A stretch of 10,223 bases of DNA. It comes from a bacterium. Its GTDB lineage: Bacteria > JAJVIF01 > JAGGVT01. Location: contig JAGGVT010000033.1 of the NCBI GenBank assembly GCA_021157815.1, forward strand, positions 1 to 10,223, written 5' to 3'. Below, piece after piece: positions 238 to 10,022 of the stretch; within the stretch, counting starts at the first letter, position 1, and the number at the start of each line of letters is the position of its first letter. The translations under genes and the position numbers were made by a program. Under the pieces are notes generated by a model. The model was not told the origin of the DNA. It ran no database searches and saw only the letters and a program-made list of their open reading frames with translations.

Positions 238-312
238 TATAGCCAGGTTAGTCATTTTTCAGCCGATAAAGGCGATTTTATTTTGAGATGCCATAAGGAA
301 TCAATTAAGTCT

Positions 313-543
313 ATGACCAAATACTCAAAATACAATACAGAAGGCAACAGGCGGAAAACCCGATGGGAATTGACCTTGAACCCGACTGTTACAATGCTTG
401 TAGTCGCGTTCTGTATTGGTGTGCTGCTTGTCTGGATAGGTTTGTTTGAGCATACGGTTAATCCGGGTGATGGCACTGTATCATCCGTTGCGGGTGATGC
501 ATACGCTCGAATTGTAAGTTTCGTGGATTCGGTCAGGAAATAA
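313..543 (+). CDS. Small single-pass membrane protein, function unknown
   Basis: This is a 76-residue open frame on the opposite strand from all other genes. The ATG at 313 is preferred because AAGGAA (295-300) lies 12 nt upstream, a slightly long but usable Shine-Dalgarno spacing. An in-frame TTG at 283 would add ten residues and has no better site. The protein has a basic polar N-terminus (RRKTR at about residues 13-17), one hydrophobic helix at about residues 26-45 (VTMLVVAFCIGVLLVWIGLF) and a C-terminal tail of about 30 residues. The positive-inside rule suggests a cytoplasmic N-terminus. I do not recognise a family. It ends 157 nt from the stop of the convergent C11 gene. An overlapping minus-strand frame (252-635) competes for this DNA but has neither a membrane helix of this quality nor recognisable motifs. 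It could still be a chance frame. Confidence 0.5.
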   Translation: MTKYSKYNTEGNRRKTRWELTLNPTVTMLVVAFCIGVLLVWIGLFEHTVNPGDGTVSSVAGDAYARIVSFVDSVRK

Positions 544-700
544 AAGTACAGTTTTTCAGGGACAACTAAATAGCCACTTCCCCGGCATGCCTGATTCACC
601 TTACAGATAATTGTTAGTTTTGTTCTGGACAGCATGACCGGGTTACAGTTACAATTTACGCGCGATCATGTGATATGTTTCCGATTTTCATAATCAAACA

Positions 701-2764
701 TCACTCGCTTACATCGAACGCATCAAGGAAATCATCCCAATGTGTATCTGAAAATCCGATTGTTACATAATCAGCGCGCCTGTTTGCGCAATCCTCGTGA
801 TTATAATTTGTCGGGAACCAGATTTGCCATCCGGTTTCATAATACGGGCACATGCTGGCGCCGTCTCCGGTATGTCCGCTTTCAATCATGGTTTCGGTGA
901 TAGCATCGGAAACGCCCTCCGCGGCATCGCGCAGGGATTGCGGCAATTCCTCAACGCTGTAAATATACTCAGCGAAAAGCCCCAGGTCCTTGACTCTGCC
1001 ATCGTTGCAGTACGCTCCCCACTTTCCTGTTAGTGTTCTGCATGATGCTATTTCAGTTCGATAATTATCAAGCGCGTCAATCAGTTCAAGCGAAAACGTA
1101 TCCAGAGCGGGAACAACTACAGTATCAATCATGCTGCATTCCCAGGCGGAATATGTAGCCGGCGCGGGTGAATATGCCAAATAATTGTTCACAAACTCGG
1201 ATGCAATATCCTGATAAGTGCAGGTTTCAGCATTATTAGCGATATATCCAAACAGTTCAGAATATTCCCATGATGATGCCCACATGACCGCTTCGGACGC
1301 CATGCATGTTTTTGTGACATCCTTAAACGTATATGCTGTTTCAATCCAGCCTAGCAGGCAGGATACGATTGCGATAAATTCAAACTGGTCAACAGATTCC
1401 ACCTCATCCAAAACAGTTCGGCAGGCATCCCGTATCTCCCAAACCTGCATCCCTCCGCAGGCGACAAGGAAATCATCGGGATCCGGCGCCCACCTGAATG
1501 GCCCGTTTCCATGCCCATAAGGAATGAAGCCGTATTTTTTCGCGGGATATTCACGCATCCCCCACCTGAGGAATTTTTCAACATACGCGATTTTCGCATG
1601 TGGGAGTCCGCCCGGAGGAATGACCTCGCCGCCATCATCAATGACCGGTGAGATTATCGTATCGTTGTAACCGTCCGGGTCTCTCTCGATTTTGAGGATA
1701 ACGTCATCAGGAGATGCGTCCTTGTCCCAGCATACGATGATGTTCATTTTTCCTTCAGGTGAGCCGATAACCTCCATCTCGTTAATGTCACCCTGGATGC
1801 GGTCACCGAGATTATCCTCCGTGAAATATAAGAGAAGAGTCCATTCTGTCAGCGCATCCTCTGTGACTGCGATTTTAACAAGGTCGTAGAGTTCGAGGCC
1901 ATTTGAATTTTCACTTGTCGCGATTATCGCAGCGATATAATCTCCCTGCGTAACCCCATTGATATTGGCAAGATTCAATCGCCACTTCGAATTTCCGACC
2001 TGTTCGAATTGGACAAATATTTCATTCGTTATCGCGGGACAGTATAGTTTGACTTCATCGACATCATCCTGCCAGTCGAGAACATCGACCTCGATTATGG
2101 TTTCTGAATTAGCAGTATCATATAGAATTCCCTGTGAGAAATTCTCGATTGCATAGGGTTCATCGCAGTTGCCGGGATAGCTGACATCGATTGCGTAATC
2201 GACGTAATCAACACCGGACGGCATATAAAACTGAAGCTGTTCAGTTAATTCCTGCTGGCTTGCGAAGGTTCTTTGCGGTTCGTTTTGTGCGTATGCTTTA
2301 AACGGGTTTATATCCGCGCCGTTTGGAATGTCCCAAAGGCTTGTCCAGTCATCTGGATTCATCAGGGTTACGCTGTTGTCGTTTGAGTAAATAATCAGGC
2401 GAGCGTCATAACCATCGAGAAGCAGACTGTTGGTAAGTGTTACGTTTACGCTAAGCATGCCTGTCAGCGGTTCGTAGTATGTTATTTCAGCTGACGGGAA
2501 ATGAAGATATTCCGTCACGTTGAAATGGAAATCCGCCTGACGCGCTGGAATGATACTCACATCCAGCGATTCGAAATCAAACTGGAATCGTCCTGCATTT
2601 AACAAAATTCGATTTGTCTGCCCCTCATCTACCTGAGCGACAGGCATTGTTAAATCCGAATCGTGTTCCTGTGATGGCTGTACCGGATTTACATGTCCGG
2701 CTGAGCATCCTGTGATGATTAGCATTAAAAGCGCTGTCAGGATATAGATGTTTTTGTTTTTCAT
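701..2764 (-). CDS. Clostripain-like (peptidase C11) lipoprotein, copy 2
   Basis: Predicted 687-residue secreted cysteine peptidase. I chose the ATG at 2764 because GTGAGA lies just upstream; an in-frame GTG at 2776 would add four residues. The signal peptide ends in a lipobox (ITGC, Cys20) followed by Ser, so it is probably an exported lipoprotein. Residues about 55-302 form the N-terminal module shared by all four large genes (NPFKAYA, DWQDD; Cys200/Cys242). The C11 domain starts at about 307 with WTLLLYFTEDNLGDRI and then INEME. It has the catalytic His in GHGNG (His418), the nucleophile in VSCLLGW (Cys469) and the C-terminal GWQIWFP signature (645-651). Clan CD C11 enzymes use this His/Cys dyad, usually cleaving after Arg or Lys. 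Here Val467 replaces the Asp normally two residues before the Cys, so specificity may differ. It is last in the gene row, behind about 400 nt of repeat DNA. The substrate is unknown. Confidence 0.88.
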   Translation of the reverse strand: MKNKNIYILTALLMLIITGCSAGHVNPVQPSQEHDSDLTMPVAQVDEGQTNRILLNAGRFQFDFESLDVSIIPARQADFHFNVTEYLHFPSAEITYYEPLTGMLSVNVTLTNSLLLDGYDARLIIYSNDNSVTLMNPDDWTSLWDIPNGADINPFKAYAQNEPQRTFASQQELTEQLQFYMPSGVDYVDYAIDVSYPGNCDEPYAIENFSQGILYDTANSETIIEVDVLDWQDDVDEVKLYCPAITNEIFVQFEQVGNSKWRLNLANINGVTQGDYIAAIIATSENSNGLELYDLVKIAVTEDALTEWTLLLYFTEDNLGDRIQGDINEMEVIGSPEGKMNIIVCWDKDASPDDVILKIERDPDGYNDTIISPVIDDGGEVIPPGGLPHAKIAYVEKFLRWGMREYPAKKYGFIPYGHGNGPFRWAPDPDDFLVACGGMQVWEIRDACRTVLDEVESVDQFEFIAIVSCLLGWIETAYTFKDVTKTCMASEAVMWASSWEYSELFGYIANNAETCTYQDIASEFVNNYLAYSPAPATYSAWECSMIDTVVVPALDTFSLELIDALDNYRTEIASCRTLTGKWGAYCNDGRVKDLGLFAEYIYSVEELPQSLRDAAEGVSDAITETMIESGHTGDGASMCPYYETGWQIWFPTNYNHEDCANRRADYVTIGFSDTHWDDFLDAFDVSE

Positions 2765-2789
2765 TTTTATTCTCACTAAATTTTAATAA

Positions 2790-2818
2790 GCACCATGTTA
2801 AAGAGCCTGGCGAGAAAG
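2790..2818. repeat. Diverged 29-bp repeat, copy A
   Basis: The 29 bp beginning GCACCATGTTAAAGAGCC match 10049-10077 at 25 of 29 positions. The two copies lie 26 and 113 bp upstream of the start codons of the first and last minus-strand genes, in the same orientation, and each is followed within about 65 bp by a separate inverted-repeat element. Its end (CTGGCGAGAAAG) loosely resembles the terminal inverted repeat of the element at 2983-3111 (CTGTTGAAAAAG, 9 of 12), so it may be one end of a decayed related element. Confidence 0.5.
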
Positions 2819-2880
2819 TCGATGCAAATGTCTACTGACATCACTAAGTTGTTCCTAAGTCAGACTAAGAATGATTTTCC

Positions 2881-3127
2881 GTCATTCCCGCGAAAGCGGG
2901 TTCTTTAGCCTGTCGTCAGGAATCCATTTTTCTTTTATAGAAGAGTTGCCATTTCTCATTTTAAATTGGATTCCCGCTTTCGGGGCTGTTGAAAAAGCCT
3001 ATTATATCCCAGACCGTAGGGTCAACTCTCCGTGGTTGCCCTGTATTTATGCCAATATTTAGGGTAGGCACAGAGACCTACCCCCTACATTCAGCCCTTT
3101 TTCAACAGCCCCTTTCGCGGGAATGAC
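2881..3127. repeat. Dispersed GTCATTCCCGCGAAAGCGGG inverted repeat, interrupted
   Basis: The left arm is 2881-2900 continuing at 2921-2926. The right arm is 2967-2982 continuing at 3118-3127. Joined, the arms are reverse complements over 26 bp. The right arm is split by a 129-bp insertion and the left arm contains 20 extra bases (2901-2920, with the small palindrome CCTG-tcgt-CAGG). Without the insertion the unit is about 112 bp. Each arm is itself a hairpin (CCCGC..GCGGG). Repeats of this kind are widespread between genes of many bacteria and have no coding potential. It lies between a propeller gene and the last C11 gene, so its RNA form could affect read-through or mRNA stability. Confidence 0.75.
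2983..3111. mobile_element. 129-bp MITE-like element inserted in the outer repeat
   Basis: Perfect 15-bp terminal inverted repeats (GGGCTGTTGAAAAAG at 2983-2997; CTTTTTCAACAGCCC at 3097-3111) are flanked by the direct duplication CTTTCG (2977-2982 and 3112-3117). The same bases can be read as 16-bp ends with a 4-bp TTTC duplication, so the exact boundary is ambiguous. Removing the element plus one duplication restores an uninterrupted right arm of the surrounding repeat, which is strong evidence for transposition. There is no transposase, so it was mobilised in trans. Inside are two hairpins with 8-nt loops: 3018-3042 (AGGG-CAAC/GTTG-CCCT with one bulged T) and 3062-3083 (GGGTAGG/CCTACCC). 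Confidence 0.85.
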
Positions 3128-3170
3128 AGGTCAATTGGCGAATAATGATTTCAGTGATCAATTCTGAATT

Positions 3171-5477
3171 CTATTTATTAAACAAAACCAAATACGCGTC
3201 GGTTTTGCCGTTTGATAAATTCTCATCGACAAGGTTTCCGGGATTAAAATCCGCGAGACTCTCGAAACCGCCTGTAACAATCACGTTTGAGGAATCACTT
3301 GCTATTCCATATCCGTAATCGTAATCTCCCCCACCCCATGTTACTGCTGAGATTAAACCGCCATCGTTGTCGATACGGGAAAGGAAGACGTCATCAGCAC
3401 CGTATGATGAATGCCAGTCCTCACCTGCTGATGGGTTAAAATCAACCGAGCCTGCAAAACCGCCTGTTATGAAAATGTTTCCGAGATTATCGATTGCCAT
3501 ATCGAAAGCCCAGTCACTGTATGAACCTCCCCATGTGCCTGCCCATTGGAATTCGCAGCCGTTATTGAATTTGCTTACGAATATGTCATAAGCGCCGTTT
3601 GATGCGTGTTCATCAATGCCAGCGCCGGGGTCGAAATCAACAGTATTTTGGAAGCATCCCGTGATAAATATATTTTGATCGATATCAATGTCGATTGCGT
3701 TTGCGATGTCCATTCCATAACCGCCAAACGATTGTGCTGAAACAAAATCAGCGTGCGTATCAAATTTGCTCAAGCAAATATCTGACACTCCGTTTGACTT
3801 GTGTAAATCCTCATCTACGGCAGGGTTGAAATCTACAGTTTTTTCAAAATCTGTAATAACAAAAAAGTTGTCTTCATCATCACCGATAACGCCTTTGCAG
3901 GTGTCCTCGCCAGCGCCGCCCCATGTTAGCGCGATGATGAAATCGCCATCCTCCTTGAACACAGTTATAAACGCGTCGTTTCTGCCGTTTGATATGTGGA
4001 TATCCTCTACGGCGGGATCAGGGTCGAAATCGGCGTCAATCCAGTAATTTCCGGTTACGAAAATATTTTCATACAAATCAAACGCGACACATTCCGTGTA
4101 TTCGTTTTTCGTTCCGCCCCACGATTGCCCCCAGATATAATTGCCATCCGGATCGAATTTGCTTAGAAAGGCGTCATACGGATACGGGCTTCCGGCATCA
4201 GATGTGCAGTGAATATCCTCTTCAGGACCGGGATCAAGGTCAACGCACAGGGCGAATATTCCTGTAACGTAGATATTTCCCAATGAATCGACTATGACAT
4301 CGCTGCCGTCATCCATAAGATAAGTTCCCCATGTCCGCGCCCAGAGAAAGTTTCCTTCGGAATCATACTTGCACAGGAATGAATCCCAGTCTCCTTCGGC
4401 GGTGTGTTCATCGACAGGCGCAAGCGGATTGAAATCGACTGTATTTCTGAAATGCCCGGTTACATAAATATTCCCGGAATCATCCACGGCAATTGAATGT
4501 CCGCTGTCATCACTGCTGCCGCCCAATGAGTGAGACCAGGCATAACCGCCATCCGGCATTGATGTGTTTTTGATTTCGATCTCAACAATGTCATACAGTG
4601 CGGTCAGGCCTGAGTTTTCGGATGATGCAATCACTGCGCCGATATATTTTCCCGGCATAGCGCCAGCGCTGTTTGTGATTGTTCCCGTCCATGTATTTGA
4701 ATTCCCTTGTGTTAATGGGACAATCTCATCGCTGATAACCGCGGGGCAATATAGAAGGACAGAGTTGACATCATCCTGCCAGTCAAAAACATCAACCTGT
4801 AAAATCGCCTGTGAATCTATTTCATAGCTGAGTTCATTATGATTGAAATTGGAAATTGAATATGGCTCACGGCAATTAACAGGCCATGATGCGTCAATCG
4901 CGAAATCGAGAGTATCAAATCCAGCTGGAAACCAGACCTGCAGACGTTCGGTATGCCGGGTATCATCGCCTTCAAATATTCGCTGCGGTTCGTTTTTCGC
5001 AAACGCCTTGAAAGGGTTTATCTGGCTTCCGCCAGCGATATCGAACAAGCCTGTCCAGTTGTCCGGATTTTTCAACCTGCAACCAAAATCATCGGTATAG
5101 ACAATCAGGCGCATATCGTAAGCAGTGTATTGAGTTGGATTTGTAACAGTGGCATCGACATCGAGAATTCCCGTAACAGGCTCCCAGCTATGTACTGTAA
5201 AAATCGGTGATGGCAGCCACGATGTTACATCATAGTGACTGCATAAAACTCGATTCCTGCTGACATCCAATTTTAATGAGCCGGGATTGAATTTCAGTGT
5301 CCATGCGCCAAGCAGATTTCTGCCCGAATCCTCTGAATTAATAACATCCGGCAAATCAGCGAGTGTGTTTATTTTCACTGGTGATGCAGATGGAATCGCG
5401 GGATTGTTTCCGCTTGAGGAACAGCCAATCGCAAAAAGCGCAACAATTGCCACCAGAAAATATACTGCTTTCTTCAT
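3171..5477 (-). CDS. Seven-repeat beta-propeller (SBBP-type) lipoprotein, copy 2
   Basis: This 768-residue predicted surface lipoprotein starts at the ATG at 5477, eight nt after GGGG (5486-5489). The signal peptide is MKKAVYFLVAIVALFAIGC with lipid-acceptor Cys19 followed by Ser. Residues about 53-303 are the shared N-terminal module (NPFKAFA at about 154, FDWQDD at about 231, Cys202/Cys244). From about residue 315 to the C-terminus there are seven repeats of about 65-70 residues. Each carries the pattern GNIYVTGxFxxTVDFxP, then xxNGxxDxFLSKFDxDGxFxWAxTWGG, characteristic of SBBP beta-propeller repeats. The V-D-F-type strands fall near 347, 412, 482, 548, 613, 678 and 742. Seven units ending flush at the C-terminus fit one closed seven-bladed propeller, a fold usually used for ligand or protein binding. 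There are no catalytic residues. The stop lies upstream of the repeat-rich gap; the C11 gene before it is 33 nt away, so these two are probably co-transcribed. Confidence 0.88.
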   Translation of the reverse strand: MKKAVYFLVAIVALFAIGCSSSGNNPAIPSASPVKINTLADLPDVINSEDSGRNLLGAWTLKFNPGSLKLDVSRNRVLCSHYDVTSWLPSPIFTVHSWEPVTGILDVDATVTNPTQYTAYDMRLIVYTDDFGCRLKNPDNWTGLFDIAGGSQINPFKAFAKNEPQRIFEGDDTRHTERLQVWFPAGFDTLDFAIDASWPVNCREPYSISNFNHNELSYEIDSQAILQVDVFDWQDDVNSVLLYCPAVISDEIVPLTQGNSNTWTGTITNSAGAMPGKYIGAVIASSENSGLTALYDIVEIEIKNTSMPDGGYAWSHSLGGSSDDSGHSIAVDDSGNIYVTGHFRNTVDFNPLAPVDEHTAEGDWDSFLCKYDSEGNFLWARTWGTYLMDDGSDVIVDSLGNIYVTGIFALCVDLDPGPEEDIHCTSDAGSPYPYDAFLSKFDPDGNYIWGQSWGGTKNEYTECVAFDLYENIFVTGNYWIDADFDPDPAVEDIHISNGRNDAFITVFKEDGDFIIALTWGGAGEDTCKGVIGDDEDNFFVITDFEKTVDFNPAVDEDLHKSNGVSDICLSKFDTHADFVSAQSFGGYGMDIANAIDIDIDQNIFITGCFQNTVDFDPGAGIDEHASNGAYDIFVSKFNNGCEFQWAGTWGGSYSDWAFDMAIDNLGNIFITGGFAGSVDFNPSAGEDWHSSYGADDVFLSRIDNDGGLISAVTWGGGDYDYGYGIASDSSNVIVTGGFESLADFNPGNLVDENLSNGKTDAYLVLFNK
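3174..4535 (-). repeat. Seven tandem propeller-repeat units in the second propeller gene
   Basis: About 1.36 kb is built from seven degenerate units of roughly 195-210 bp that encode the blades (protein residues 315-768). The recurring antisense signature GAAATC-AC-GT corresponds to the VDF strand and CCCCATGTT-type blocks to the TWGG turn. Blade 4 (about residues 538-551) has FVITDF in place of the usual YVTGxF, and blade 2 has CVDLDP in place of TVDFDP, so the units are clearly diverged and not recently amplified. Confidence 0.8.
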
Positions 5478-5485
5478 TATAGTTA

Positions 5486-5489
5486 CCCC
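5486..5489 (-). promoter_or_regulatory. Shine-Dalgarno of the second propeller gene
   Basis: GGGG on the minus strand lies eight nt before the ATG at 5477, inside the 33-nt gap after the upstream C11 gene. This supports the start and independent translation initiation within a shared message. Confidence 0.5.
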
Positions 5490-5510
5490 GGAAATCAGGC
5501 TTGTATTTCG

Positions 5511-7571
5511 TTAATACTCGTTGTCGTCGTACTCCATAAGGAATTCATCCCAGAGAGTTGCATCGGCAAATCCGATATTGTTAATTACATCACGAACTTT
5601 GTACTGGTACTCCTCATCGGGATTGTTGAACTGGTCGGTGAAAAGAATTTGCCAGCCTGTCGCGTTATAGTAACAACCACTGCCTGTATTGATTGTATCG
5701 AAGTAAATAAATGAATCGGTGATTGCATCCAGCATATTCTGCGCGGCATCAGTTAAATCCTGAGGCAGCGGTGGCTCGTATGCTATTAGATTTTCACAGA
5801 AGAAGCCGAGGTCGGTTATTCTGTAATCCTCGCAGTGATTTCCCCAGCTGTCTGACTGCGCGCGGCATTCCACAATTTCCGGCCTGTAAACTTCAAGATT
5901 ATCAAGAAGCGCTTGTGCAAGCACATTCACAGCGGGAATAGCGAGCGTCTCAACATCTTCACTTCTCCATGCGCCGTATGTAAACGCGCCTCCATGATAA
6001 AGAGTATTGCTGACAAAAAGTTCCGCGAAATCATATCCGTCCATATCAAGATTCTCAAGCAGTTCCGCAAGTACCTCTTCATACCAGCAACTACTGACAT
6101 ACATGACATATTCACTCGACCATACTGCCTTTGCGCATTCTCTCAGCCCATACGCCATTTCAATAAAACTCATCGTGCAGCTTTCCAAACCTACAAAATC
6201 AAGCTGGTCAACTTCAGGAAATATATCCAGAGCATCCATGACAGCATCATTGAATTCCCAGACACCCATGTCATCATAAAAACTCTTGTCTTCAGGAACG
6301 TGATAGTAAATTCCGTAGTTCCCGTGGCTCAGCACAATGAAGCCATATTTTTCAGCAGGATATTCGCGTATCGCAAATTTAAGAAAACGCGTTAGTGTCG
6401 CTGGATCAACCATATCCAGGCCATCCGGCGGAATAACTTCCCCGAAATCTTCAACAACTGGCGAGATAATTGTATTATTAAAGCCATCAGGGTCTCTTTG
6501 TATTTCAAGTATTACATCATCAGTAGTGCCGGTGATATCCCAACAGACAATCATGTTAAGATCGCCTTCCTGCGATCCGACCATCTCCATTTCGTTGATG
6601 TTGTCGCGCAGTGAATAGAGATTTTCCTCGTATGGATAATAGAAAATCGTCCAGTCTGCTTTGATGTTTTCATAGACATTTATCGAGACAAAATCATAGA
6701 GTGTGAAACTGCCTGAATTTTCAGATGTCGCGAGAATGACACCCGAATATTCACCCGCGGATGCTCCTTCATTATTAATAAGCAGCTGCCGCCATGTGTT
6801 TGTATCTATCCGCTCGAACGGTGTGAGTTGTACGCCTGTAATTAACGGGCAATAAAGAGAAACCGCGTTGGCATCATCCTGCCAGTCAAAGACATCGACT
6901 TCAATCATCGTGGACGAACCGACGGCATCTTTTAGCCTTCCCTGTTTGAAATTCTGGATTGAGTATGGTTCCTCGCAATTGTCAGGATAACTGACATCTA
7001 TCGCGTATTTTACCGTCCGGGTTAAATCGGGAAGGTAAATCTGGAGACGTTCTGTATGCTGCGCAAGAGGTTCGAATTCACGCTGGGATTGGGTTTTCGC
7101 GTATGCCTTGAACGGATTGATTTCCGCACCGCCGGGCTGGTCCCATTGGTTGGTCCAGTTATCGGGATTGCGGAGCGTAACGCCATAATCATCAGAGTAG
7201 ATAATCAGGCGAACATCATAACCGCCAAGTTGCATCGGATTGGTTATGGTTACATCAACGTCGACGATTCCCAGATACGGTTCATACGAAACAACCGAAA
7301 CCGCAGGATACGCAATGTTTTGCGTTACGTTGAAATGATCGGTCGCAGTTCGAATTTGCTCGGTTGTTGCGGTAAGCGAATCCGTATCAAACTCCATCGT
7401 CCATGTGCCAATCAGAGCTCGGCTGGACAAATTATCATCGGCCTGATTAACCGGCTGTTCGGAAATAGTGTCGGAACTCGATGTTTGCACCGGGTCGTTT
7501 CCACCGGATGAGCATCCAAGCATAAGAGCGAGCATAATCAACCCTGAAATAATTAGTATTGTTCTGTTCAT
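5511..7571 (-). CDS. Clostripain-like (peptidase C11) lipoprotein, copy 1
   Basis: Predicted 686-residue exported cysteine peptidase. The ATG at 7571 is preferred over the in-frame ATGs at 7592 and 7589 because GGAG lies 6 nt before it and because it gives a compact signal peptide ending MLGC (Cys20, then Ser). The shared N-terminal module spans about residues 53-300 (NPFKAYA, VDVFDWQDD, Cys199/Cys241). The C11 domain begins at about 305 with DWTIFYYPYEENLYSLRD and INEME. The catalytic pair is His416 (LSHGNYG) and Cys465 (LESCTMSF), and GWQILF (639-644) matches the usual C-terminal signature. Glu463 occupies the position two residues before the Cys where Asp is typical, so an acidic S1 pocket and Arg/Lys preference remain plausible. 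It is clearly homologous to the C11 gene at 701-2764. It lies 82 nt after one propeller gene and 33 nt before the other. The natural substrate is unknown. Confidence 0.88.
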   Translation of the reverse strand: MNRTILIISGLIMLALMLGCSSGGNDPVQTSSSDTISEQPVNQADDNLSSRALIGTWTMEFDTDSLTATTEQIRTATDHFNVTQNIAYPAVSVVSYEPYLGIVDVDVTITNPMQLGGYDVRLIIYSDDYGVTLRNPDNWTNQWDQPGGAEINPFKAYAKTQSQREFEPLAQHTERLQIYLPDLTRTVKYAIDVSYPDNCEEPYSIQNFKQGRLKDAVGSSTMIEVDVFDWQDDANAVSLYCPLITGVQLTPFERIDTNTWRQLLINNEGASAGEYSGVILATSENSGSFTLYDFVSINVYENIKADWTIFYYPYEENLYSLRDNINEMEMVGSQEGDLNMIVCWDITGTTDDVILEIQRDPDGFNNTIISPVVEDFGEVIPPDGLDMVDPATLTRFLKFAIREYPAEKYGFIVLSHGNYGIYYHVPEDKSFYDDMGVWEFNDAVMDALDIFPEVDQLDFVGLESCTMSFIEMAYGLRECAKAVWSSEYVMYVSSCWYEEVLAELLENLDMDGYDFAELFVSNTLYHGGAFTYGAWRSEDVETLAIPAVNVLAQALLDNLEVYRPEIVECRAQSDSWGNHCEDYRITDLGFFCENLIAYEPPLPQDLTDAAQNMLDAITDSFIYFDTINTGSGCYYNATGWQILFTDQFNNPDEEYQYKVRDVINNIGFADATLWDEFLMEYDDNEY

Positions 7572-7577
7572 TTTGCA

Positions 7578-7581
7578 CTCC
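7578..7581 (-). promoter_or_regulatory. Shine-Dalgarno deciding the C11 copy 1 start
   Basis: GGAG on the minus strand is separated by six nt (TGCAAA) from the ATG at 7571. The longer in-frame start at 7592 would place this motif inside the coding sequence and add MMNPECK before the hydrophobic signal core. Starting at 7571 also puts the lipobox Cys at residue 20, the same place as in the other C11 paralog. Confidence 0.65.
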
Positions 7582-7653
7582 GGATTCATCATTTAATTAA
7601 TTATATAATGTAAAGTAGCAAAGGATTAAAACCCTCTGCTATCCGTATAATAA

Positions 7654-9936
7654 CTAAGGAATATATCTCATTAAAAAAACATCAAGATAACCGTTTGTTG
7701 TGTAAACATCAAGGTCTGAGGCGGGATCGAAATCGACAGTGTATTGGAAATAACCGGTCAGGAAAATTTCATCACCGTTGACAGTTACACCGTAACCTCG
7801 TTCGCCGCCGTTTCCTCCCCATGTTTCAGCCCAGAGGTAATCGCCATCTGAATTGAACGCGCTGAGGTAGAGGTCGCTTCCGCCGTTGGTGTAATGTAAA
7901 TCCTCACCCGCGCCGGGATCGAAATCAACTGTACCTCGGAAACGTCCGGTTACATAAATATTTTCCAAATCGTCTTTTGCAATTGCGAAACTGTAATCAC
8001 CGTAGTAGTTATCGCTTCCCCATGTATCAGCCCACTGGAAATCGCCGTCACTGTTGAACTTGCTGAGGAAAATATCATCAGCGCCTTTTGATGTGTGTTC
8101 GTCTGATTCAAGACTCGGGTCAAAATCGACTGTACCGCGATAGTAGCCTGTTATGTATGTATTATCCGAACTGTCAGCAACAAGTTTCATTCCGATATCA
8201 TTCTGACTAGCTCCCCATGTTCGCGCCCAGATGAAATCACCGTCAGGATTGAACTTACTCACGAAGATATCGTATTTTCCATTCGGTGCAATATGGTTAT
8301 CCTCGCCATCACCCGGATCGAAATCAACCGTTTCCCGGAATGCGCCTGTTACGATTACATTATTCGATGTGTCAGTGTCAATTCCGTTGCAGAAATCCGA
8401 TTGCCCGGCTCCCCATGTTTGTGCCCAGATGAAATCACCATCCGCATTGAACTTACTGATAAATGCATCATCACTGCCATTGGATGATCGCTCATCAACA
8501 TCAATACCGGGATCGAAATCCCCTGTGCCTTGAAATTGGCCTGCAACATATACGTTGTCGTTGATATCAATCGCAACATCATTACCCAGTTGATAATCGC
8601 CATCTCCGCCCCATGTTAGCGCCCAGACCAGGTCACCAGCCGGATTGAACTTGCTCAGATATATATCTTCACCACCTATAGAAGTGCGCTCCTCAACGCC
8701 ATCGCCGGGATCGAAATCGACAGTACCGGTAAATCCGCCTGTTACATATATATTGCCCAGACTGTCAATTTCCATGCCAAACACTTCATCTACACCGTTG
8801 CCACCCCACGTCAACACCCAGATTAGATTCCATTCCTGGTCAATTTTGCTTAAGAAGATATCATTCGAACCGTGTGAAGAACGTTCATATACATAGGGTC
8901 TTGGATCGAAATCGACAGTGCCCTCGAAAATTCCGGTTGTGTATATATTTTCGGATTCATCAACAGCTACGCCAAATCCGCTGTCATAACCGCTTCCGCC
9001 CCAGATAACCGTGTTGCCATCCATTGCGGGCGCTTTTTTTATAAGGATATCAACCATGCTATATAAAGCGGTTGTTCCTGAGTTTTCTGACATCGCAATC
9101 ACGCAGGCTGTGTAGATTCCGGGTGATGCTCCTGTGTTGTTATAAAGCTGCATAGACCATTTTTTGGGATGAATCTGTGTGAATGGAACCACAGTCACGC
9201 CTGTAATTGACGGACACCAGAGGAGAACTGAATCAGCATCATCCTGCCAGTCGTAAACTTCTACTGTAACATCCGCTCGGCAGGTTTCCAGATGATAAAG
9301 CTCCTCCTGTGTGAAATTTTTTATTTCGTACGCCTCCCCGCAGTTTCCGGGATAGCTGGCGTCAATCGCGAAATCGAGCATTTCAATTCCAGCCGGGAAA
9401 TAAAGCTGAAGTTGCTGCGTGTTGGAATATCCCAAACCTGCAAACTCACGATTTTGAACACCCTTTGCGTATGCCTTGAACGGGTTGATAATCGAACCGC
9501 CGGGGATGTCATACAGCGCAGTGTAATCATCGGGATTTGTCAGCCTTGTTCCAAAATTATCCGAGAAGATAATCAGCCGTAAATCATACGCGCTGAATTC
9601 AAACGGATTCGTGATTGTGACATCAACATTGAGGATTCCCGTAATTGGATCAAAATTCTGAATGTAAACCAAGGGCGCGGGAAGCATCATGGTTGCATCA
9701 TAATGCGTGGCGACATCGCGATTGGGGGTTATCGACGCCTCCATCGATTGCGGATTGAAATTCAGTTTCCACGCACCAAGGAAATTACGGCTGGTGTCGC
9801 TATCCTGCATAACCGGCAATGCGAAATCAGCGCTCGTGTCAGTCGGCGTAACAGGCTGAGAGCCGTTCGATGAACATGCAAAGCCGATTGTAATAGTAAA
9901 GAGAATTACAAGTGAGAGGAAAATGGTTGATTTCAT
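7654..9936 (-). CDS. Seven-repeat beta-propeller (SBBP-type) lipoprotein, copy 1
   Basis: This 760-residue protein is the first gene of the row. The ATG at 9936 follows GGTGA by about 4 nt. The hydrophobic leader (residues 1-20) ends in GFAC (Cys21) followed by SSNG, an atypical lipobox because Gly and Phe sit where a Leu/Val and a small residue are usual. Lipidation is inferred mainly from its three paralogs. The shared N-terminal module is at about 51-301 (NPFKAYA at about 151, YDWQDD at 228, Cys199/Cys241). Seven SBBP repeats follow from about 311 to the end, with VDFDP strands at 341, 406, 473 (GDFDP), 537, 603, 670 and 734, each with a KFNxDGDFxWAxTWG segment. This fits a single seven-bladed propeller that probably binds a ligand or partner at the surface. 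The repeats are more regular than in the other propeller gene. The stop is 82 nt before the next gene. Confidence 0.88.
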   Translation of the reverse strand: MKSTIFLSLVILFTITIGFACSSNGSQPVTPTDTSADFALPVMQDSDTSRNFLGAWKLNFNPQSMEASITPNRDVATHYDATMMLPAPLVYIQNFDPITGILNVDVTITNPFEFSAYDLRLIIFSDNFGTRLTNPDDYTALYDIPGGSIINPFKAYAKGVQNREFAGLGYSNTQQLQLYFPAGIEMLDFAIDASYPGNCGEAYEIKNFTQEELYHLETCRADVTVEVYDWQDDADSVLLWCPSITGVTVVPFTQIHPKKWSMQLYNNTGASPGIYTACVIAMSENSGTTALYSMVDILIKKAPAMDGNTVIWGGSGYDSGFGVAVDESENIYTTGIFEGTVDFDPRPYVYERSSHGSNDIFLSKIDQEWNLIWVLTWGGNGVDEVFGMEIDSLGNIYVTGGFTGTVDFDPGDGVEERTSIGGEDIYLSKFNPAGDLVWALTWGGDGDYQLGNDVAIDINDNVYVAGQFQGTGDFDPGIDVDERSSNGSDDAFISKFNADGDFIWAQTWGAGQSDFCNGIDTDTSNNVIVTGAFRETVDFDPGDGEDNHIAPNGKYDIFVSKFNPDGDFIWARTWGASQNDIGMKLVADSSDNTYITGYYRGTVDFDPSLESDEHTSKGADDIFLSKFNSDGDFQWADTWGSDNYYGDYSFAIAKDDLENIYVTGRFRGTVDFDPGAGEDLHYTNGGSDLYLSAFNSDGDYLWAETWGGNGGERGYGVTVNGDEIFLTGYFQYTVDFDPASDLDVYTTNGYLDVFLMRYIP
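7657..9006 (-). repeat. Seven tandem propeller-repeat units in the first propeller gene
   Basis: About 1.35 kb encodes seven diverged units of about 65 residues (protein residues 311-760). The best conserved blocks are IYVTGxFxGTVDFDPG and the D(I/A)F(L/I)SKFN segment. Similarity is easier to see in protein than in DNA, so this is an old internal duplication. The last unit (FLTGYFQYTVDFDP then DVFLMRYIP) ends at the stop codon, consistent with a complete ring. Confidence 0.8.
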
Positions 9937-9994: not shown

Positions 9995-10022
9995 ATTATA
10001 GCATTAGTGGAAATAATTTCAT
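9995..10022 (-). promoter_or_regulatory. Candidate promoter of the four-gene row
   Basis: On the minus strand, TATAAT (complement of 9995-10000) is preceded by TGC, giving an extended -10. An ATGAAA (complement of 10017-10022) lies 16 nt further upstream and matches the -35 consensus at 4 of 6 positions. Transcription would start near 9988 and leave a leader of about 50 nt before the ATG at 9936. The perfect -10 is the strongest evidence. The organism's sigma factor preferences are unknown. Confidence 0.5.

Follow-up and report, generated by a model that had tools for sequence, protein, structure and literature searches.

A shared, uncatalogued lipoprotein module carries many different C-terminal domains in an almost unstudied bacterial phylum

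The window (the whole stretch of DNA analysed, 10,223 nucleotides) is the entire contig C118 of a draft genome, G000, which comprises 3.217 Mb in 221 contigs and is approximately 91% complete. It is filled by four consecutive minus-strand open reading frames encoding proteins of 760, 693, 768, and 691 aa. Because the window is a whole contig, the run of genes may continue beyond its ends, and four is a minimum. The features are listed below in the order of genes 1 to 4.

9995-10022, minus strand: putative gene 1 promoter, ATGAAA-16-TATAAT with TG before the -10 element; a consensus match only, from a scan in which 19 promoter-like sites were found versus 22.6 expected by chance
7654-9936, minus strand: gene 1, lipoprotein of 760 aa, shared module plus seven-bladed SBBP propeller (open reading frame, PF06739, seven blade motifs)
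9802-9936, minus strand: gene 1 signal peptide, lipidation Cys21 (nt 9874-9876), and tether CSSNGSQPVTP (from the sequence)
9025-9801, minus strand: gene 1 module, two predicted beta-sandwich domains (residues ~46-202 and ~203-304), the second Ig/FnIII-like (alignment and predicted structure)
7657-9024, minus strand: gene 1 SBBP propeller domain (PF06739, blade motifs)
7616-7641, minus strand: terminator-like hairpin between genes 1 and 2 (consensus match only)
5511-7592, minus strand: gene 2, lipoprotein of 693 aa, shared module plus C11 peptidase (open reading frame, PF03415, phmmer matches to the C11 structures 6mzo and 6n9j)
7436-7592, minus strand: gene 2 signal peptide, lipidation Cys27 (7512-7514), and tether CSSGGNDPVQT (from the sequence)
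6663-7435, minus strand: gene 2 shared module (alignment)
5514-6662, minus strand: gene 2 C11 domain with dyad His423 (6324-6326) and Cys472 (6177-6179), Glu at the S1 Asp position (PF03415, alignment to C11 structures)
3171-5477, minus strand: gene 3, lipoprotein of 768 aa, shared module plus seven-bladed SBBP propeller, lipidation Cys19 (5421-5423) (open reading frame, PF06739, motifs)
4560-5339, minus strand: gene 3 shared module (alignment)
701-2776, minus strand: gene 4, lipoprotein of 691 aa, shared module plus C11 peptidase, lipidation Cys24 (2705-2707) (open reading frame, PF03415, motifs)
1859-2617, minus strand: gene 4 shared module (alignment)
704-1858, minus strand: gene 4 C11 domain with dyad His422 (1511-1513) and Cys473 (1358-1360), Val at the S1 Asp position (PF03415, alignment)

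The gaps between the genes, in the same order, are 61, 33, and 394 bp, so gene 4 may be transcribed separately. A palindromic REP- or MITE-like repeat (CCCGCTTTCGCGGGAATGAC) lies in the 394-bp gap at 2870-3124 and includes an inverted pair (2970-2997/3097-3124); its 12-base core was present in 38 copies in the 926 kb sampled. Two small overlapping open reading frames (252-635, minus strand, and 283-543, plus strand) follow the cassette downstream, close to the end of the contig.

The initial annotation described C-termini that alternate between a seven-repeat SBBP propeller and a C11 cysteine peptidase, and profile searches agreed with this description. PF06739 matched genes 1 and 3 (E 1e-13 in 7654-9936 and 1e-20 in 3171-5477); the two scores were 73.8 and 51.3 bits versus a curated cut-off of 20.5, and each propeller contained the blade motif D-[FL]-[DN]-P seven times. 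PF03415 (Peptidase_C11) matched genes 2 and 4 (E 2e-17 in 5511-7592 and 3e-16 in 701-2776); the two scores were 60.4 and 64.3 bits versus a cut-off of 25.8. The propeller proteins resemble NF047494, the Leptospira LipL53 family, in being SBBP-repeat lipoproteins, and a partial match to that model was obtained (E 2.5e-33). However, the scores of 115.5 and 81.9 bits fall below the equivalog cut-off of 400, the N-terminal module is a different one, and the propellers have seven blades of approximately 65 residues.

The pairs His422/Cys473 and His423/Cys472 aligned with the dyad of C11 structures, and the His/Cys dyad was kept in all five module-linked copies compared, which together with the gathering score places these domains with clostripain and PmC11. 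Unlike those peptidases, the window copies are joined to a lipid-anchored module, and in both of them the S1 Asp is replaced. In PmC11, this residue (Asp177) lies in the S1 pocket two residues before the catalytic Cys and sets the preference for basic residues (PMC4850288); it is a highly conserved feature of C11 that is not needed for family membership. The corresponding position is Val in 701-2776 (VSC) and Glu in 5511-7592 (ESC), and Asp was kept in L083 (DAC) and in G001 (DVC). Judged by these substitutions, the cleavage preference of the window peptidases is probably unlike that of clostripain, and the preference for a basic P1 residue may be lost.

The N-terminal part of approximately 300 residues was 43-49% identical in the window genes to the first row of the alignment, and the invariant columns include INPFKA, DWQDD, CP, and SENS. 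With a lipidation Cys in all four proteins, the shared module, the common type of signal peptide, and the order of motifs claimed in the initial annotation were all recovered. The module had also been thought undescribed. No Pfam or NCBIfam model covered it in the four window genes, nor did any Pfam model in the approximately 50 members scanned, and its sequence matched no solved structure in the PDB. No described equivalent was found in the literature searched, which left out most subscription journals.

The module was predicted to consist of two beta-sandwich domains, in an AF2 model of intermediate quality (mean pLDDT 67.5, pTM 0.49). Comparison with known folds, a check proposed for the module at the outset, gave a candidate match for one of the two: on this moderate-confidence model, VIA-align related residues 203-303 to Ig/FnIII domains with Z up to 9.8. 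The fold search of the two-domain model was dominated by this second domain, and the first sandwich (residues ~50-200) was assigned no match. The structure prediction for the full-length C11 protein was poor (pLDDT 51). In their first sandwich, long-form modules (e.g., L110:7373-8632) have two invariant cysteines (PCxDC) that the short form found in the window lacks.

Across 45 diverse modules, the polar or charged residues D118, R120, D136, R163, D229, and Q231 were strongly conserved, which suggests that the module itself may bind something and may not be a passive stalk. One explanation carries this further and holds that the module is the functional part, binding a ligand or partner (e.g., by attaching to an outer-membrane complex shared by the family, to the S-layer, or to a polysaccharide), and that the C-terminal domains are accessory specificity units. 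A mere spacer would be expected to vary more at these six residues and at DWQDD and INPF, and the invariant PCxDC of the long form speaks for the same explanation. However, the conserved residues may equally be structural, no partner gene accompanies the module, and its fold matches generic Ig/FnIII domains; we find this explanation rather doubtful.

Each of the four window proteins has the signal peptide with a lipobox Cys that is typical of bacterial lipoproteins, followed by a C-S-x(n)-P tether. A strict rule recognised the lipobox in 80 of 91 family members, and nearly all of the other 11 show an evident lipobox. After the lipidated Cys, the residues read S-[SGNK]-...-P-[VTIL]-x-P, so that the tether of the family can be written C-S-x(2-5)-P-[VTILA]-x-P. 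The pattern C-[SAG]-x(1-7)-P-[VTAIL] was present in 66 of the 80 strictly called members versus 5 of 26 other lipobox proteins (Fisher p 8e-9), the latter being a small control set composed partly of mis-called open reading frames. Because this control is small and the members are related, the tether is a lead for a sorting signal and not proof of one; the motif may simply have been inherited along with the family. The lipoprotein export signal (LES) of Bacteroidetes consists of K-(D/E)2 or Q-A-(D/E)2 just after the lipidated Cys (PMC5080379). The present family resembles the LES and Sus-like lipoproteins in that a diderm genome encodes many lipid-anchored proteins with varied binding or hydrolytic domains, and in the short conserved motif directly after the lipidated Cys. 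In contrast, the motif here is uncharged (C-S-x(2-5)-P-V-x-P) and does not conform to the LES pattern, the shared folded module of 300 residues lies outside the LES concept, and surface export is putative.

A profile of the four window modules, the search suggested by the initial annotation, matched 78 places in G000. An iterated profile of 45 modules, for which 150 of the 327 candidates were scored, matched at least 146 places; the long-form profile (approximately 400 residues) matched at least 128, again from 150 scored candidates. After cross-hits and split pieces were removed by hand, the union came to about 136 loci, 55 of the short and 81 of the long form, an approximate count that includes some fragments. 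Their open frames sum to approximately 325 kb, or 10% of the 3.217-Mb assembly. The matched places numbered 140 in G001/G386, 129 in G003/G387, and 145 in G002, and the module was thus abundant in all four genomes of the phylum examined. These copies dispose of the possibility that it occurs only at this locus. Among 381 genomes outside the phylum, none gave a convincing match; 28 had weak ones (best E 7e-6), mostly to the signal-peptide end of the profile.

The module was also matched in records filed under other phyla. L055 (JAHIRU010000075.1), from a MAG filed as Nanoarchaeota, encodes a module-SBBP lipoprotein 39-50% identical to those of the window. This is the one close copy in the 0.9-Mb bin, which has a few long copies on two other contigs, and the L055 contig is probably a misbinned relative. 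The matches on L058 and L059 (CSMAG_1386, labelled Planctomycetota) have coordinates identical to those in G003 of the window's phylum, and the label is probably wrong.

The C-termini of approximately 50 module members were scanned. Propellers included SBBP, LVIVD, PQQ/ACSF4, PD40, and BNR types, and peptidases included C11, M23, and HExxH types; L093 contains the metallopeptidase-like motif AHEHGHALGY. The other C-termini were arylsulfotransferase, TIGR03790, PrcB_C/PrcB, PKD, fn3, glucodextranase B, beta-helix, and carboxypeptidase-regulatory domains, and one combination joined fn3 with LGFP and M23. Because the C-termini span so many families, the module is a general carrier and not the partner of two families, in line with the common carrier proposed in the initial annotation. 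In constant-N/variable-C families, such as polymorphic toxins and choice-of-anchor proteins, one constant carrier is likewise joined to many partner domains. A polymorphic-toxin-like system, with a toxic C-terminus swapped behind a constant N-terminus, would share with this family the constant 5' part, the varied 3' parts, and the sharp joins. However, the C-termini found here are propellers, PKD, fn3, and peptidases, that is, binding and hydrolytic effectors without a match to any toxin family. Moreover, the proteins are lipid-anchored at the constant end, and the gaps of 33-394 bp that separate the window genes contain no immunity-like small genes; such a system is highly improbable.

In a tree of 45 modules, the two window SBBP modules were sisters (SH-aLRT 99), as were the two window C11 modules (SH-aLRT 96). 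The maximum-likelihood (ML) tree of C11 domains also joined the window pair (97/98), with alternatives rejected at a p-AU of about 0.012; a five-row tree of the modules of C11 proteins alone left the pair unresolved (p-AU 0.116). An apparent conflict between the module and C11-domain trees, seen in raw identity (47% to L085 versus 43% between the window copies), was gone in the ML tree, in which the window pair were sisters. Along the like-for-like window pairs no breakpoint was detected, and synonymous sites were near background in both halves, which fits an old duplication of a two-gene unit. The duplication of a propeller/peptidase pair that the initial annotation had read from the window was therefore upheld for these four genes.

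The accompanying claim, that domain swapping had not been recent, held for the window and failed elsewhere in the genome, where swapping appeared recent and frequent. Separate trees for the N- and C-terminal parts agreed for the window C11 pair, and genome-wide the C-types were scattered over the module tree, with C11 and SBBP each at several separate places. Six C-types mapped onto this tree (22 labelled rows) required 12 changes versus a shuffled mean of 14.6 (range 12-17); because many of its branches are weak, this mapping is supportive only. Seven genes form a recent clade in which the modules were 65-93% identical in protein and most of the C-termini were unrelated. For example, the modules of L060 (PQQ) and L065 (PKD+BNR) were 82% identical in amino acids, and the C-termini had nothing in common; the DNA of the two genes aligned at 81% from 63 bases before the start codon to base 896, where the alignment ended. 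A breakpoint search without a prior placed the join between residues 296 and 305 in six of the eight pairs and between 331 and 346 in the two pairs involving L062; the statistics were higher than the permutation maximum by a factor of five to twenty. In L084a and L084b, both with PD40, four-fold sites were 78% identical in the module versus 47% in the C-terminus (p 2e-5), a contrast that selection on the protein cannot explain. Synonymous sites thus point to recombination. The reverse case was found in L077 and L114: their C-termini, both TIGR03790, were 67% identical over 433 residues, and their modules were too divergent for BLAST to align.

Parts of these data are compatible with swapping and parts with gene conversion of the module. 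It is possible, although we hold it only tentatively, that concerted evolution alone was at work, the C-termini having long been paired with their modules and gene conversion between unrelated neighbours homogenising the modules so as to mimic swapping. L084a and L084b suit such a process, as they are separated by 4 kb and share their C-type, with modules that are far more similar. However, L060, L065, L099, and L062 lie on different contigs, and L077/L114 have similar C-termini on differing modules, for which conversion between short- and long-form modules is not easily the source. A promoter-like sequence, TAGTAATAT-N14-TATAAT with TG before the -10 element, was found upstream of the L060, L061, L062, L065, and L084 copies. 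As a family-wide promoter it was rejected, since it is confined to the recent clade and is matched by 9 of 91 members, some of them loosely.

The explanation that we favour, and consider reasonably probable, is that this is an uncatalogued lipoprotein display module, in which a lipid-anchored stalk of two sandwich domains presents exchangeable C-terminal effectors at the outer membrane. A signal peptide II and the lipidated Cys, both seen in the sequence, would anchor the protein, the short conserved tether would follow, and the two predicted beta-sandwich domains (the second Ig/FnIII-like) would keep one effector off the membrane. Omp85 was found in all four genomes of the phylum, suggesting that these bacteria are diderm and that the outer membrane is the likely site; lipoproteins facing the periplasm are also possible. 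The stalk is reused at about 136 loci, which differ widely in their C-termini. Sequence comparison shows that, in one recent seven-gene clade at least, the 5' part (signal peptide, tether, module, and in most of the genes also the promoter) was recombined with differing 3' parts, the joins lying at the end of the module. The window genes represent an older duplication of a propeller-lipoprotein and peptidase-lipoprotein pair. Within such a pair, the probable task of the propeller is to bind a polymer or protein, and that of the C11 peptidase is to cleave a protein or polymer target or to process neighbouring lipoproteins.

A bolder version, possible in our view but clearly less so than the display module itself, is a phylum-wide display platform. 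A constant 5' cassette (promoter, signal, sorting tether, and stalk) would be actively recombined with unrelated effectors, and about a tenth of the genome would form a combinatorial repertoire of surface lipoproteins with its own surface-sorting signal. The module makes up approximately 10% of the genome, is present in all four genomes, and is absent from Pfam and NCBIfam; giving it a name would therefore supply annotations for considerably more than a hundred proteins in each genome of a phylum that has hardly been studied. With their sharp boundaries, the recombination joins provide a natural example of how lipoproteins evolve by modules, and the tether, being conserved, provides a candidate sorting signal for lipoproteins beyond the Bacteroidetes that is open to testing.

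Variety itself might instead be the selected trait, with a surface lipoprotein repertoire diversified by gene conversion to evade phages or predators. Recombination at the module boundary, the many paralogs in excess copy number (10% of the genome), and several interrupted copies as potential donors would suit antigenic or surface variation. However, such systems usually combine a short constant part with a homologous variable part, and the folds joined here are unrelated; catalytic residues are conserved, including the C11 dyad in five of five copies, and no single expression locus was seen. We regard surface variation of this kind as unlikely. Module genes interrupted by single stop codons or a frameshift were found on the G000 contigs C104 (two), C206, C215, C36, C98 (position 15533), C175, C188, and C195. 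They could be pseudogenes, donors, or assembly errors; stop-codon recoding is an unlikely cause, since the interrupted copies include TAA, TAG, and TGA alike.
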